This document shows, piece by piece, positions 6,212 through 59,460 of a stretch of DNA of 64,000 nucleotides. A program made the position numbers and the translations under genes. Position 1 is the stretch's first letter; each line of letters opens with the position of its first letter. Source of the DNA: Arcobacter sp. (GTDB lineage: Bacteria; Campylobacterota; Campylobacteria; Campylobacterales; Arcobacteraceae); contig PKUJ01000004.1 of NCBI GenBank assembly GCA_002869565.1, positions 1 to 64,000 on the forward strand. Direction: 5' to 3'. The notes beneath the pieces are model-generated. The model was not told the DNA's origin. It saw only the letters and a list, made by a program, of their open reading frames with translations, and made no database searches.

Positions 6212-6850
6212 ATGAAAAAAGGTGTGGTATTACTAATTACTATTTTTTTTATTGCTGCATTTAGTTTGCTTATTTTGAAAAATCTTGATGATACAGATAT
6301 TTTTATAGAAAAAGAAAATTATATTTTAAATAATACCCAAGTATTAATAGCTATTAAAAATACTAAAAATGAAGTTTCTAAGCTTTTAGTAAAACATAAA
6401 AATGATATAGATAAAGCTTTGGAGAGCGAAGTTTTTCAAACATTAATACCTATAAAAGTCAATGATTTAGATATTAAGTTTGGTATAAAAAAATATGAAA
6501 AAATTGACTTAAATGAGATAAATAATAAAGATTCAAAAGTTGTTGAAGAATATTTTGTATCTTATAATGTATTTGATTATGAACTTTTTAAAGATATATA
6601 CACAGAAAAGTTACAATTTGGAAATAAAAAAATTGAGACTAGTAAGCAATTAAGTGATATAATCGAGACTTTTATTATAAAAAGTTATAGTAAAGAGATA
6701 TTAAGAATTAAAGAAAATCTAGGTTTTTTTAAAGCTGAAAATTTATATGAACTTAATATTGATGTTAAATATAATGGTGCAGTTGCAAGTGCATATTATA
6801 TTTTAAAAAATGATGGGAAGGTTGAATATTTTGACATTAGTTTCAAGTAA
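6212..6850 (+). CDS. GspK-like minor pseudopilin
   Basis: It encodes 212 residues starting MKKGVVLLITIFFIAAFSLL, which matches the GspK type N-terminus (G-V-x-LL-x-x-x-F and no Glu5). The soluble domain is shorter than in classical GspK (300 or more residues) and I do not see the usual calcium-binding insertion. It follows gspF by 6 bases and its 3' end overlaps the next gene. The role would be to cap the pseudopilus tip together with the H, I and J-like proteins. Assignment rests on N-terminus and order. Confidence 0.65.
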   Translation: MKKGVVLLITIFFIAAFSLLILKNLDDTDIFIEKENYILNNTQVLIAIKNTKNEVSKLLVKHKNDIDKALESEVFQTLIPIKVNDLDIKFGIKKYEKIDLNEINNKDSKVVEEYFVSYNVFDYELFKDIYTEKLQFGNKKIETSKQLSDIIETFIIKSYSKEILRIKENLGFFKAENLYELNIDVKYNGAVASAYYILKNDGKVEYFDISFK

Positions 6851-7751
6851 AGAAACACAGAAAATATTTTTAACAACAAAAACTAAAATTAGTCATTTTG
6901 TTGGAAAGATTGATATTATTATCTCTCCTGAGTTTTATTGGGTTAGAAAGTTTGAAATCCCTGTTAAAACTGAGACACAAGCGCGACATGTTTTACCTAC
7001 ACTTTTTGAAGATATTATTGATGATACTTCAATTTTGACTTATCAAGTGATAAAATTAGAGGAAAATCTTTTTTTATGTTTTGCTTACAACAATAAAAAA
7101 ATTTATGAAGTTATAAAAACTTTAAATATACCTATTTCAAGTATCTCTTCGATTTATTTTGCTCAAAACGAATGCCAAAACTTTAAATCTTTTAAAGTTG
7201 ATGAATTGAAGTTTATGTATACACCAGAGGGTATTCTAGTAAAAATACCAAATAATTTACTAGATGATGTGATGGATTTAAAAAAAGTAATTAATAGTAT
7301 AAAACTTAGTACGTATAAGCTGCAAATCAAATTATATAATGATGCAATTAATATAAAATATTATTATTGGATATTTTTCTTTTTTGCTGTGTTGATATTG
7401 ATAAACCTTGTAAAGTATATTGATTTTTCTTCTCAAATTAATAAAAATGAAACTACAATAGAAAAATTAAAAAATTTGAATAAATTACCTTCTAGTATGA
7501 TTCAGACAAATGCTATTTTAAATAAATATGATAAAACAATAGAAAAAGAAAATAAAAAAAGGGAAGCAATTACTTATGTTATGAGTGATCAACGATTTGA
7601 TTTAAAAAGTTTAAATATAGAAAATACTATTTTAAATTTAGAATATTTATCTGCTGATAAAAGTGAAGTAGACAAATTTTTATCAAAGAAATATAAAATT
7701 CTTTCAAGTACTGTTAACTCCTTTGCTTTAAGTGTTAGGATTCAATTATGA
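6831..7751 (+). CDS. GspL/PilN-like assembly protein
   Basis: Bitopic inner-membrane protein: a cytoplasmic domain of about 180 residues (IISPEFYWVRKFEIPVKTE is the actin-like L-type start region), one transmembrane helix (YYYWIFFFFAVLILINLV), then a periplasmic coiled-coil and ferredoxin-like tail. I place the start at the TTG at 6831 because GGGAAGG at 6815-6821 lies 9 bases before it. ATG codons at 6810 and 6813 lack a ribosome site. It overlaps the gspK-like gene. It would anchor the secretion ATPase to the membrane. Confidence 0.65.
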   Translation: MTLVSSKETQKIFLTTKTKISHFVGKIDIIISPEFYWVRKFEIPVKTETQARHVLPTLFEDIIDDTSILTYQVIKLEENLFLCFAYNNKKIYEVIKTLNIPISSISSIYFAQNECQNFKSFKVDELKFMYTPEGILVKIPNNLLDDVMDLKKVINSIKLSTYKLQIKLYNDAINIKYYYWIFFFFAVLILINLVKYIDFSSQINKNETTIEKLKNLNKLPSSMIQTNAILNKYDKTIEKENKKREAITYVMSDQRFDLKSLNIENTILNLEYLSADKSEVDKFLSKKYKILSSTVNSFALSVRIQL

Positions 7752-8140
7752 ATAAATTAAATCCTGCCTATTTATTAGGACTTATAGTTATTATATTTAT
7801 AATTTCTTCTGTTTCTGTTTCAAATCAAAAAGAAAAATATAAAAATAGTATTCAAGCCTATGAAAGTATGAAAATTAAATCAAAAAATTTTAAAGAGTAT
7901 AAACAGACTTGGTTTAATAAAAGTGAAGTAAGAAAAAAAATAGATAGTATTGTTCGAAATTCTACTTTTAGAAAAGAAAAAATATTAAAAGTTGAACAAT
8001 CAAATATTATAAAACTAAAAATAGAATCAAGAAATCCAAGAGTTTTAAATAAATTTTTAAATAGAGTATTAAATGAAAAGATAATACTAAAAAAGCTTGA
8101 TGTTCAGAAAAGAAGTATTTCAATGGAAATAGGAATTTAA
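7748..8140 (+). CDS. GspM/PilO-like assembly protein
   Basis: 130 residues: one N-terminal transmembrane helix (PAYLLGLIVIIFIISSVSV), a basic coiled-coil and a small alpha-beta periplasmic domain (KILKVEQSNIIKLKIES through EIGI), the architecture of GspM. The ATG overlaps the stop of the GspL-like gene by 4 bases, typical of the L-M pair, which form a heterodimer. Family similarity is weak; order and topology carry the call. Confidence 0.6.
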   Translation: MNKLNPAYLLGLIVIIFIISSVSVSNQKEKYKNSIQAYESMKIKSKNFKEYKQTWFNKSEVRKKIDSIVRNSTFRKEKILKVEQSNIIKLKIESRNPRVLNKFLNRVLNEKIILKKLDVQKRSISMEIGI

Positions 8141-56310: not shown

Positions 56311-57138
56311 TTATATTAGGTCTTTACTTATTTTATATCCTGCTGCTTTTAATTCATCAGCAAGCTTATATCTCCATGCTCCATGCTCATCCATTTTTTC
56401 ATAGAGAACTCCAGAGATATCTCCGGGAGTTTCTACTCTTCCTTTTACTAGAGGGAAAGTATTCTCTCTTCCAATTTTAGCCATTAAATAACCATGTTCT
56501 AAAACTACATTTTGTCTTGCTCTTCTTTGAAGATCATCTTTTTCTTTTCCTCCCCAATCACATTCTGTGTAAAGAACTACTGCAAAACCAATATCTTCAG
56601 TATGTGCTTCAATTTTTTCTATAACAGTATTACTTCTACTTACCTGATCTCTTAAAACTATTGGTTCAAGATTTAGTTTTCTTACTATGTCAGATACTTG
56701 ACTTATTGCTAATTCATCATGTCCATGAACTATAAAAACTTTTGTTTTTGGTATATCCTTTTGTATATTAATAATATTAAGAGTAACGTTGTCGCTATAT
56801 GTTGTGTTAACATCTCTTGCACTATGTTCTTCCCATTCTTCTACTTCTTCAATAAAAGATTCTATTAACATTTTTTTATCTATTATTGACTTATTAAATC
56901 TGCTAAGCTCACCATTGGAATTGTATACATCATCAAAACCTTGTGCTAAAGGGCTAGGTTCAAATTTTGTTTTTTCAAGATCACTAAGATATGTGCTACC
57001 AAAAATCTTTTCAATTATTCTTTTTATTTTTCTATGCCATTTATGATAAACTGGATTGTTGTCAAGTTTATATTCAGGTAAATTATCACCTTCTTTTAAT
57101 AATTCATTCAATTTATCTAATGCTTCTTGTTTTTCCAT
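56311..57138 (-). CDS. TIR-domain protein (PF10137 type), candidate defence effector
   Basis: 275 residues. KVFIVHGHDELAISQV (133-148) begins the TIR-like domain, NTVIEKIEA (170-178) and RQNVVLEHGYLMAKIGR (208-224) complete it, with Glu214 in the position of the conserved acidic residue. PF10137 TIR domains include the NAD-degrading effectors of cyclic-nucleotide-activated (Pycsar and CBASS) anti-phage systems. The N-terminal 125 residues are helical and may sense the trigger. No cyclase is encoded nearby. Confidence 0.85.
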   Translation of the reverse strand: MEKQEALDKLNELLKEGDNLPEYKLDNNPVYHKWHRKIKRIIEKIFGSTYLSDLEKTKFEPSPLAQGFDDVYNSNGELSRFNKSIIDKKMLIESFIEEVEEWEEHSARDVNTTYSDNVTLNIINIQKDIPKTKVFIVHGHDELAISQVSDIVRKLNLEPIVLRDQVSRSNTVIEKIEAHTEDIGFAVVLYTECDWGGKEKDDLQRRARQNVVLEHGYLMAKIGRENTFPLVKGRVETPGDISGVLYEKMDEHGAWRYKLADELKAAGYKISKDLI

Positions 57139-57563: not shown

Positions 57564-57621
57564 GTTAGAAAAATATATACTTTTATTATCAGTTCTACAA
57601 AGATATTCAATAAATATTTTT

Positions 57622-57706
57622 GTAGAGTTGACTGAATGGTAAGGTGCTCGATTGATACTCGAAGGCTAGGGGCAACCCTAAGCAGGTTCGAAACCTGTAC
57701 TCTCTG
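57622..57706 (+). tRNA. tRNA-Ser-like gene with GAU anticodon
   Basis: An 85-base class II cloverleaf: 7-bp acceptor (5' GTAGAGT, 3' ACTCTCT, with a U-C mismatch at pair 2), D-arm ACT/GGT, anticodon arm CTCGA-TTGATAC-TCGAA (27-43 mismatch), a long variable arm TAGGG-GCAA-CCCTA, and T-arm GCAGG-TTCGAAA-CCTGT. Discriminator G73 and the long variable arm are seryl identity features. The anticodon at 57654-57656 is GAT (isoleucine). CCA is not encoded. A terminator follows at once. Confidence 0.7.
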
Positions 57707-57707
57707 C

Positions 57708-57731
57708 AAAACTCCCCTCGGGGAGCTTTTT
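57708..57731 (+). terminator. Rho-independent terminator after the tRNA-like gene
   Basis: CTCCCC-TC-GGGGAG followed by CTTTTT. It serves the tRNA-like transcript and, read on the other strand with AAAACTCC, may also stop the convergent head operon. Confidence 0.85.
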
Positions 57732-58195
57732 CAGTTTAAAGCACTTTCTACAAACTTAATAACTATATCCTGAAGTTCTTTTTCAACCCCACCATAAAGT
57801 TTTCCATTTGAATCTATAGGCATAAAAGCTCTAGCTGGCACGCTTCCATCATCTTTTCCAAACTGCATTACTACAGGATAAGGAAAGCCTTTATAAGTGG
57901 CACTTGTTCCAACACTTGCTTCATCTTTTGAAGCTGATTGGATAAATTTTCCTTGCAAGTCACCTTCATTATACAACATCTTTGCAGTTGATTTATATTT
58001 TAAAGTTGATTCTTTTAGTGGTGTCCAAGCTTTACCATCTGGGGTTCTTCCATCTTCAAAGCTATCCATACTTATGTTATAGAGGTGATTTGATAACTCT
58101 ATCATCAGAGGTTGTGTATCTGAAATAGATGTTTGAGCATTTTTAAGAGTTTTTATAGCTTCAGTAAAACCAAATGCCTGTAAAGTTATTTGCAT
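57731..58195 (-). CDS. Virion morphogenesis protein, Mu gpG-like
   Basis: 154 residues. SFEDGRTPDGKAWTPLKEST and MQFGKDDGSVPARAFMP are typical of the phage virion morphogenesis family (Mu gpG/tail completion protein S). It is the last visible gene of the leftward head operon; a possible RNA pseudoknot precedes it. Confidence 0.85.
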   Translation of the reverse strand: MQITLQAFGFTEAIKTLKNAQTSISDTQPLMIELSNHLYNISMDSFEDGRTPDGKAWTPLKESTLKYKSTAKMLYNEGDLQGKFIQSASKDEASVGTSATYKGFPYPVVMQFGKDDGSVPARAFMPIDSNGKLYGGVEKELQDIVIKFVESALN

Positions 58196-58242
58196 AATAT
58201 TTCCTAATTAGTTATAATTTTCTATATATAAGAGAAATGGGA

Positions 58243-58294
58243 CTACAGATATGGCATGTCGGATTGCCCTGCAAACTGTAGCCTTTAATCCGAC
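58243..58294 (-). promoter_or_regulatory. Predicted RNA pseudoknot between head genes
   Basis: Read on the minus strand: GTCGGATT, then GGCTACAG, then AATCCGAC, then CTGTAG. The first pairs with the third (8 bp) and the second with the fourth (6 bp), so the stems interlock. The first strand overlaps the stop of the gpF-like gene (TCG GAT TAA). Could control reinitiation or expression of the gpG-like gene. Confidence 0.65.
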
Positions 58295-59460
58295 TCTCTT
58301 TTATATATAAGTTTTTCTATTCTTCTTTTATCCATTTGAGTACCATTATCTAAAAAGTATGCTGTTACTCCTTGAGTCTTATCTTTTAAATATTCAAATA
58401 TAACCAATATAGCTCTTCTTTTGCCATTGTCATTATAGTATCTAAACATTTTTTTTATAAGTCTATTTTCTTTTGTTATCTTTCCTTTTGCATACTCTAG
58501 ATATATTTCATCTGGATCTTTTATGGTTTTTGCTATTTCATCTAGGTATAGATGTCTATCTCTTTTTTTGATTTTACTATGTCCTGAAGCTGCTTTAAAA
58601 AGGTTATCATCTATTATTATAGGATCATTGATTTTATCTATGAATACATCAGCTTCTTTTATGGCCAAAGTTTTATAAAATCTCTTTTTTAAATCCTCTT
58701 CACTCATATCTTTTAAGGCATTGTTTTTTATACTTTTTAAAGTTGTAAGTGCTGCTAAAGATGAAGACAAGTCTAATTTACTTATAGTTGATACTTTTGA
58801 GATATCTCCTACGTTGTAAGCCCAATCTTTTGATGCTATACCTTTTATTTTTCCTTTGTAAATATTAAGACCTCTTTTTTCTAAATCTTTTTCACTATGA
58901 GCTGTGACACTACATTTACAGTTCCAATCATTTGGAGGGTAGTTTGTACTCCAAAAACTATGATCTCTTGGAAGTACAGTTCTATGAAGGTCTCTATGCT
59001 TTTCCCTGGTGTTTTCTAAAAGAGCTGATCTATACATCCAATAAGTTGATAAAGGAAGTTGCATCATCTGTTTATATCTATATTGTTGATAAGCAACTCT
59101 CATATTTGTATCAAAGATAGTTTTTAGTCTTCTAGAACCTATAAGAACTTTTTTTATTTCTCCTGTCTTAGGATTAATTATCTCTTGTTCTCCCCACCAA
59201 CCTTTTTTCTTTAAAGTAGGAAGAATGTCTTTTTTAAACTGTTTGAAGTTCTTACCATCTTTCAATGCATCAGTTAAAGCACCATGAATATCATTTAATA
59301 AATCGGCTCTAGTAACTTTTGCAACTGTGAAGGTTTTATGATGTGCCTCTTTTATCATCTCATCATAATCAAAAGTTAGTTTAAAACCTTTGTTTTTTAG
59401 ATAATTTATAATCTCTTCCGGTGGTTTAGTAAAGTCAAGTTTAACCATCTTTATTCTCAT
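58285..59460 (-). CDS. Head morphogenesis protein (Mu gpF-like) with PBECR domain
   Basis: 391 residues. The first two thirds contain the SPP1 gp7/Mu F minor head domain (RLKTIFDTNMRVAYQQYRYKQ, NDWNCKCSVTAHSEKDLEKRG, given in pieces). Residues from about 285 form a second domain (SGHSKIKKRDRHLYLDEIAKTI, IYLEYAKGK, RRAILVIFEYL) of PBECR type, an RNase/nuclease-like fold fused to phage head proteins and thought to be injected with the DNA. It starts inside the portal gene's 3' end. Confidence 0.8.
   Translation of the reverse strand: MRIKMVKLDFTKPPEEIINYLKNKGFKLTFDYDEMIKEAHHKTFTVAKVTRADLLNDIHGALTDALKDGKNFKQFKKDILPTLKKKGWWGEQEIINPKTGEIKKVLIGSRRLKTIFDTNMRVAYQQYRYKQMMQLPLSTYWMYRSALLENTREKHRDLHRTVLPRDHSFWSTNYPPNDWNCKCSVTAHSEKDLEKRGLNIYKGKIKGIASKDWAYNVGDISKVSTISKLDLSSSLAALTTLKSIKNNALKDMSEEDLKKRFYKTLAIKEADVFIDKINDPIIIDDNLFKAASGHSKIKKRDRHLYLDEIAKTIKDPDEIYLEYAKGKITKENRLIKKMFRYYNDNGKRRAILVIFEYLKDKTQGVTAYFLDNGTQMDKRRIEKLIYKRESD

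Follow-up and report, generated by a model that had tools for sequence, protein, structure and literature searches.

A serine-bodied tRNA with an isoleucine anticodon

The window analysed here, the first 64,000 nucleotides (nt) of contig PKUJ01000004.1 of an Arcobacter sp., contains a Mu-like prophage that encodes MuA, a MuB-like ATPase, an S24 repressor, Mor, a Mu portal protein (Portal_Mu), Mu F (Mu_F) and a virion morphogenesis protein. Between the gene for the Mor-family activator (PF08765; 57282–57563, + strand), which is not part of the RNA, and a convergent late gene for a Phage_tail_S virion morphogenesis protein (PF05069; 57731–58195, − strand) lies a small unit (57564–57730, + strand) that includes the sole tRNA of the window (57622–57707, + strand). 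The initial annotation, made from the bare sequence, had suggested a tRNAscan-type analysis, and both ARAGORN and Rfam call a tRNA here: ARAGORN labels it tRNA-Ile(GAT), and Rfam (RF00005) scores it at 35.3 bits with a cut-off of 29 bits. It is the lowest-scoring of the 38 tRNAs above the Rfam cut-off in the genome, the other 37 reaching 46.7–74.4 bits. The host has a normal class I tRNA-Ile(GAU), as well as normal tRNA-Ser(UGA) and tRNA-Ser(GCU).

In the ARAGORN cloverleaf, the tRNA has a class II, serine-type body with 7/5 geometry and open end pairs. Its acceptor is formed by the 5′ strand GTAGAGT (nt 1–7; 57622–57628, + strand) and the 3′ strand ACTCTCT, which is followed by G at position 73 (57699–57706, + strand), with no CCA encoded. 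Pair 1–72 is a G-U wobble, 2–71 is a U × C mismatch and 27–43 is a C × A mismatch. The anticodon GAU (57654–57656, + strand) lies in the loop TTGATAC (57652–57658), followed by a long variable arm of 18 nt (GGCTAGGGGCAACCCTAA; 57664–57681, + strand). An intrinsic terminator (CTCCCCTCGGGGAG and a T-run; 57712–57733, + strand; hairpin 57712–57725) explains why the feature had been drawn to 57731. The initial annotation had described a serine-type tRNA with an isoleucine anticodon, mismatches at 2–71 and 27–43 and a terminator of its own, carried by a prophage, and each of these points was borne out. Its list omitted an 18-bp leader hairpin (57590–57630, + strand; arms 57590–57607 and 57613–57630, with three G-U pairs), the fold of which has a z score of −6.6 against 500 dinucleotide shuffles. 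The 3′ arm of this hairpin contains tRNA nt 1–9, including the acceptor 5′ strand, and competes with the acceptor stem.

The tRNA is a cassette present in some relatives

A near-identical phage in IMG/VR (L078) differs from the window phage at 1 position in 13,525 bases. More distant relatives differ at the tRNA slot itself. It is empty in L040, where mor directly abuts a virion gene whose product is 72% identical to that of the window, and likewise in L299 (genome G003). In L044 (genome G008), the slot is filled by a class II serine-type tRNA with the anticodon GAA and an acceptor, ATAGGGT/GCCCTCC, that is open at both 1–72 and 2–71. This pattern of presence and absence identifies the tRNA as a cassette, and the GAA of the L044 orthologue means that GAU is not obligatory. 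Among 397 sampled genomes of the phylum, the GAU pattern found one real tRNA, that of the window. A comparison with the host tRNAs, also proposed at the outset, placed the window body closer to serine-type GAU tRNAs of other mobile elements; its closest match is in a Flavobacterium (L115), and no host tRNA is as close. A search of annotated phages for close relatives of the cassette returned only weak tRNA-Ser or chance matches, and the similarity between a window membrane protein and the L115 proteins was not significant (E = 0.02). Three Bacteroidaceae contigs (L072, L086 and L087) have Mu portal and F genes in common with the window phage and are Mu-like.

A family with an open acceptor end

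We searched viral and genome collections with patterns that joined a D arm of serine type to an anticodon loop with GAU and, after a long gap, to a T arm. Filtering with ARAGORN and removal of duplicates left 51 tRNAs, 50 of which have an intact inner acceptor stem. As controls, we used class II tRNAs that equivalent patterns retrieved for GCU and for about 38 further non-serine anticodons. Pair 1–72 or 2–71 was mismatched in 34 of the 50 GAU tRNAs and in none of the 23 controls. After post-hoc exclusion of six archaeal and five non-serine-type phage sequences, the acceptor was open at 1–72 or 2–71 in 35/40 GAU tRNAs versus 0/24 controls (P = 5 × 10−13), with 5′ ends assigned automatically; one of them (L091) was read in the wrong frame and is by hand open at 1–72 but paired at 2–71. 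The open state was found in 34 of the 38 sequence clusters of the post-exclusion set. It is reached through 18 different end combinations, including GG with AT(T) (eleven times), GG facing GG, GT facing CT in the window copy, and AC, TT, TC, CC or GC opposite a normal CCG end. About half of the tRNAs in the pattern set have a base other than G at position 73.

Further scans gave a similar picture. When the AAGG/D-arm condition was dropped, five of seven serine-bodied GAU tRNAs, sorted by hand, were open. A scan that looked for the TATT acceptor end and ignored the anticodon recovered open serine bodies with GAU (six), UAG (one) and UGA (one). All of nine canonical serine tRNAs from phages and plasmids were closed, and the one GAU tRNA in that set, from a Brachybacterium plasmid, was open. 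Overall, the number of distinct serine-bodied GAU tRNAs comes to about 40, from bacteria and temperate phages of about ten phyla, including Campylobacterota, Pseudomonadota, Bacteroidota, Bacillota, Actinomycetota, Acidobacteriota, Chloroflexota, Verrucomicrobiota and Gemmatimonadota. The window copy shares the whole set of features: a serine body, GAU, broken 1–72 and 2–71 pairs, stems that are otherwise intact apart from 27–43, and a mobile element as its carrier. From sequence, the recurrence of this odd combination suggests a family of tRNA mimics that has been overlooked, and not a junk gene.

Two other groups came to light. Rhizobiales-like phage contigs carry the same open TATT acceptor with UAG (L208 and L214, near-identical loci) or UGA (L213). 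Mostly large phages (L182–L198) have class II tRNAs in which perfect acceptors are combined with anticodons for Asn or Lys (GTT, TTT and CTT).

The open end as a possible part of a regulatory RNA

If the leader and the acceptor formed a two-state switch or a processing signal, the open acceptor end could reflect a second pairing and the cassette would encode a regulatory RNA. The minimum-free-energy structure of the full window transcript does favour the leader hairpin over the acceptor stem, and L044 has an equivalent hairpin (z = −5.9), again reaching over tRNA nt 1–9, in which the sequence has changed and the pairing is kept by compensation. Similar hairpins overlap the tRNA 5′ end in L111, L131, L105, L140 and L134. 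However, most GAU members, above all those with the TATT end, have no such hairpin, and a comparison across the whole GAU family found no overall difference in upstream hairpin strength from the controls. The inverted repeat could instead act as DNA, as an operator, and a transcription start within the repeat would abolish the leader hairpin. We regard a regulatory role of this kind as unlikely.

Structural conservation argues against decay

The initial annotation had also raised the possibility of a decayed tRNA. A passenger tRNA that was copied between mobile elements and is now decaying would fit the lowest tRNA score in the genome, the empty slot in two relatives and the different anticodons in the two filled slots. 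The distribution of mismatches points the other way. Over all 40 tRNAs, they number 17, 33, 6, 1, 0, 0 and 0 at pairs 1–72 to 7–66, compared with 7, 1, 0, 1 and 1 along the anticodon stem and 1, 1, 1, 0 and 0 along the T stem. Apart from the terminal acceptor pairs, the only pair enriched in mismatches is 27–43 (7/40). When 23 open members were aligned, both partners had changed in 14 of 20 pairs, and outside the two terminal pairs only 9 of 414 cells were unpaired; the set was gathered with patterns in which parts of the D and T arms are fixed, and tRNAs with intact stems are more readily accepted by ARAGORN. Terminators are also retained: a strict search, which misses even the window's own terminator, matched 17 of 40 downstream flanks compared with 4.8% of shuffles. 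Because the mismatches are concentrated in the terminal part of the acceptor and the remaining stems keep their pairing and co-vary, plain decay is unlikely for the class, and a non-functional relic is an improbable account of the window copy. The low fold scores of the related tRNAs are due in part to the shared acceptor feature.

An origin of the open end in an attachment site was considered and rejected, as the window phage and the three Bacteroidaceae elements are Mu-like and integrase att sites cannot explain it.

The open end removes serine identity elements

According to a review of tRNA identity, G1–C72 and G2–C71 are absolutely conserved in Escherichia coli and most bacterial tRNA-Ser, and the listed serine determinants are G2–C71, C72 and G73 (PMC9976931). 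The window copy has several features of a tRNA-Ser, namely the 18-nt variable arm, C11–G24, an R4–Y69 pair (G4–C69) and G73. At the acceptor end, it has G1-U72 and U2 × C71 in place of G1–C72 and G2–C71, and its anticodon is GAU instead of a serine anticodon (NGA or GCU). As the family breaks pairs that seryl-tRNA synthetase (SerRS) needs, its RNAs look built to escape this enzyme. Under identity rules established mainly in E. coli, they would probably not be charged, and selection against charging is the simplest reading of the open end, one that would suit a mimic or decoy better than mistranslation.

Deliberate mistranslation, in which SerRS would charge the tRNA and serine would be inserted at AUU and AUC codons, had been among the first suggestions. 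SerRS is blind to the anticodon, the window copy keeps the long variable arm, G73, C11–G24 and R4–Y69, and allo-tRNAs with non-serine anticodons insert serine in E. coli (PMC7609411). The apparent escape from SerRS speaks against this proposal: the determinants G2–C71 and C72 (PMC9976931) are lost in the window copy, nearly all relatives have at least one of them disturbed (1–72 or 2–71 being open in 35/40), and position 73 departs from G as noted above. Constant Ile-to-Ser errors would also burden the lysogen, and we consider mistranslation quite improbable.

An isoleucine tRNA in a class II body is the weakest reading, with both of its parts (an open end that repels SerRS while isoleucyl-tRNA synthetase reads GAU, and an odd body that resists a nuclease destroying normal tRNA-Ile) very unlikely: the strong GAU preference, the U36-A37 that t6A37 requires (the loop TTGATAC carries GAU with A37) and the precedent of phage tRNAs that evade tRNA-targeting defences (PMC10264068, PMC11555353) are set against a window copy with G73, G4–C69, C38 and a class II body where bacterial tRNA-Ile has A73, C4–G69, A38 and a class I body, against the variation of position 73 in the family and against the GAA of the L044 orthologue.

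An initiator-like tRNA was likewise rejected, as it combines a 1–72 mismatch with three G-C pairs in the anticodon stem and a purine 11–pyrimidine 24 pair; the window copy has CTCGA/TCGAA and C11–G24.

A candidate decoy in tRNA conflicts

We tentatively favour the explanation that the window RNA is a mobile, poorly chargeable tRNA mimic that would act as a decoy for a tRNA-targeting host factor, which accords with the decoy listed among the first possibilities. The serine-type body would be combined with GAU and, through the opening of the two terminal acceptor pairs, would be poorly charged by SerRS. The RNA would be transcribed as a small stand-alone unit and would stay largely uncharged. 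To the advantage of its phage or island, it could then be a decoy for, or compete with the substrates of, a factor by which tRNAs are handled or attacked, such as a nuclease that cuts the anticodon loop, a toxin that modifies tRNA or a synthetase. The preference for GAU points to the anticodon loop as the part that is presented. For the wider group, a possible reading, which we hold with similar reserve, is an undescribed family of charge-evading mimics that has spread horizontally on phages, plasmids and islands and provides RNA decoys or inhibitors in tRNA conflicts. If these RNAs are uncharged mimics, they would represent a novel type of RNA in counter-defence or regulation and offer a direct approach to the question of why phages have tRNA genes; if they are charged instead, they would exemplify a switch of tRNA identity that occurs in nature.

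Relation to known tRNA systems

No description of a serine body combined with GAU and an open acceptor was found in the open-licence literature searched. Annotation tools label such genes ‘tRNA-Ile’ or ‘tRNA-Ser’, and the combination has therefore gone unremarked in that literature. Nematode nev-tRNAs also have class II bodies with Gly or Ile anticodons; they are eukaryotic, leucine-charged and not known from phages. The family comes closest in kind to the allo-tRNAs (Mukai et al. 2017, reviewed in PMC7609411), which are likewise serine-type tRNAs that combine a long variable arm with non-serine anticodons and come from mobile or metagenomic settings. Unlike the family described here, which has 7/5 geometry, a dominant GAU anticodon and an opened 1–72/2–71 end, allo-tRNAs have a 12-bp acceptor branch (8/4 or 9/3) and many anticodons. 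One allo-tRNA subgroup, with the anticodon UAU, has destabilized stems, adjoins a transposon gene, is non-functional in translation and has been proposed to be part of mobile elements or toxin–antitoxin systems (PMC7609411).

Phage tRNAs that evade host defences (PMC10264068, PMC11555353) are similarly phage-borne and likely to be tied to host attack on tRNA. Those tRNAs, however, are chargeable replacements of normal identity, whereas in the present family the body and the anticodon point to different amino acids and determinants of charging have been lost. In tRNA-dependent lysogeny (PMC10865867), a temperate phage also carries a tRNA gene, but its product takes the place of a host tRNA that the integrase has disrupted; the window prophage is Mu-like, and its tRNA has a sequence unfit to replace a normal isoacceptor.

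Genes and RNAs near the tRNAs

Family members lie among genes of mobile elements. Tyrosine integrases adjoin the tRNAs of L065, L094, L109 and L146, and other neighbours encode a terminase (L068), a large serine recombinase (L108), a transposase (L140), an endolysin (L076), DNA methylases (L089 and L142) and a ParA/VirC1-like protein (L161), with plasmid genes also among them. In L103, the neighbour is a phage portal protein fused to an Acb1 anti-CBASS domain (6712–7998, − strand). In L109, which comes from a metagenome-assembled genome of the Arcobacteraceae, the tRNA follows downstream of a tRNA-Leu and is flanked by genes for an integrase and an AAA ATPase of defence type. An all-against-all comparison of the proteins neighbouring the family found no common partner. 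A serine-bodied GAU tRNA with a closed acceptor lies in a Rhizobium beside a gene for a 917-amino-acid AAA_13 protein, of the PrrC/RloC-type ATPase family (L155; 409–4811). Near the Flavobacterium family member, there is a match to the c4-2 antisense RNA family (L115; 2211–2290, + strand).

The window prophage also encodes, as cargo, a TIR-domain protein that matches the candidate defence family PDC-S35 (56311–57138, − strand), and its Mu F protein (58285–59460, − strand) is fused at the C terminus to a PBECR2 nuclease domain, which is colicin E5/D-RelE-like. A role of the tRNA as an RNA antidote to this neighbouring nuclease was rejected because the two do not occur together throughout: L040 encodes the nuclease but lacks the tRNA, and in L072 the tRNA is present while PBECR2 is missing. 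The late-gene strand also carries a strongly structured intergenic RNA between the Mu F and virion genes (58218–58312, − strand; z = −4.05), in which a pseudoknot is possible and which matches no Rfam family. A short motif, GCAGGGCA/GCATGGCA...TTGCC(A/G)TAT, resembles this RNA and occurs at the same place in L042 and L045. In a related prophage (L043), the interval between Mu F and the virion gene holds an odd tRNA-like RNA (1349–1445, − strand) with an 8-bp acceptor (GGCAAGTA/TACTTGCC) and a long anticodon stem.
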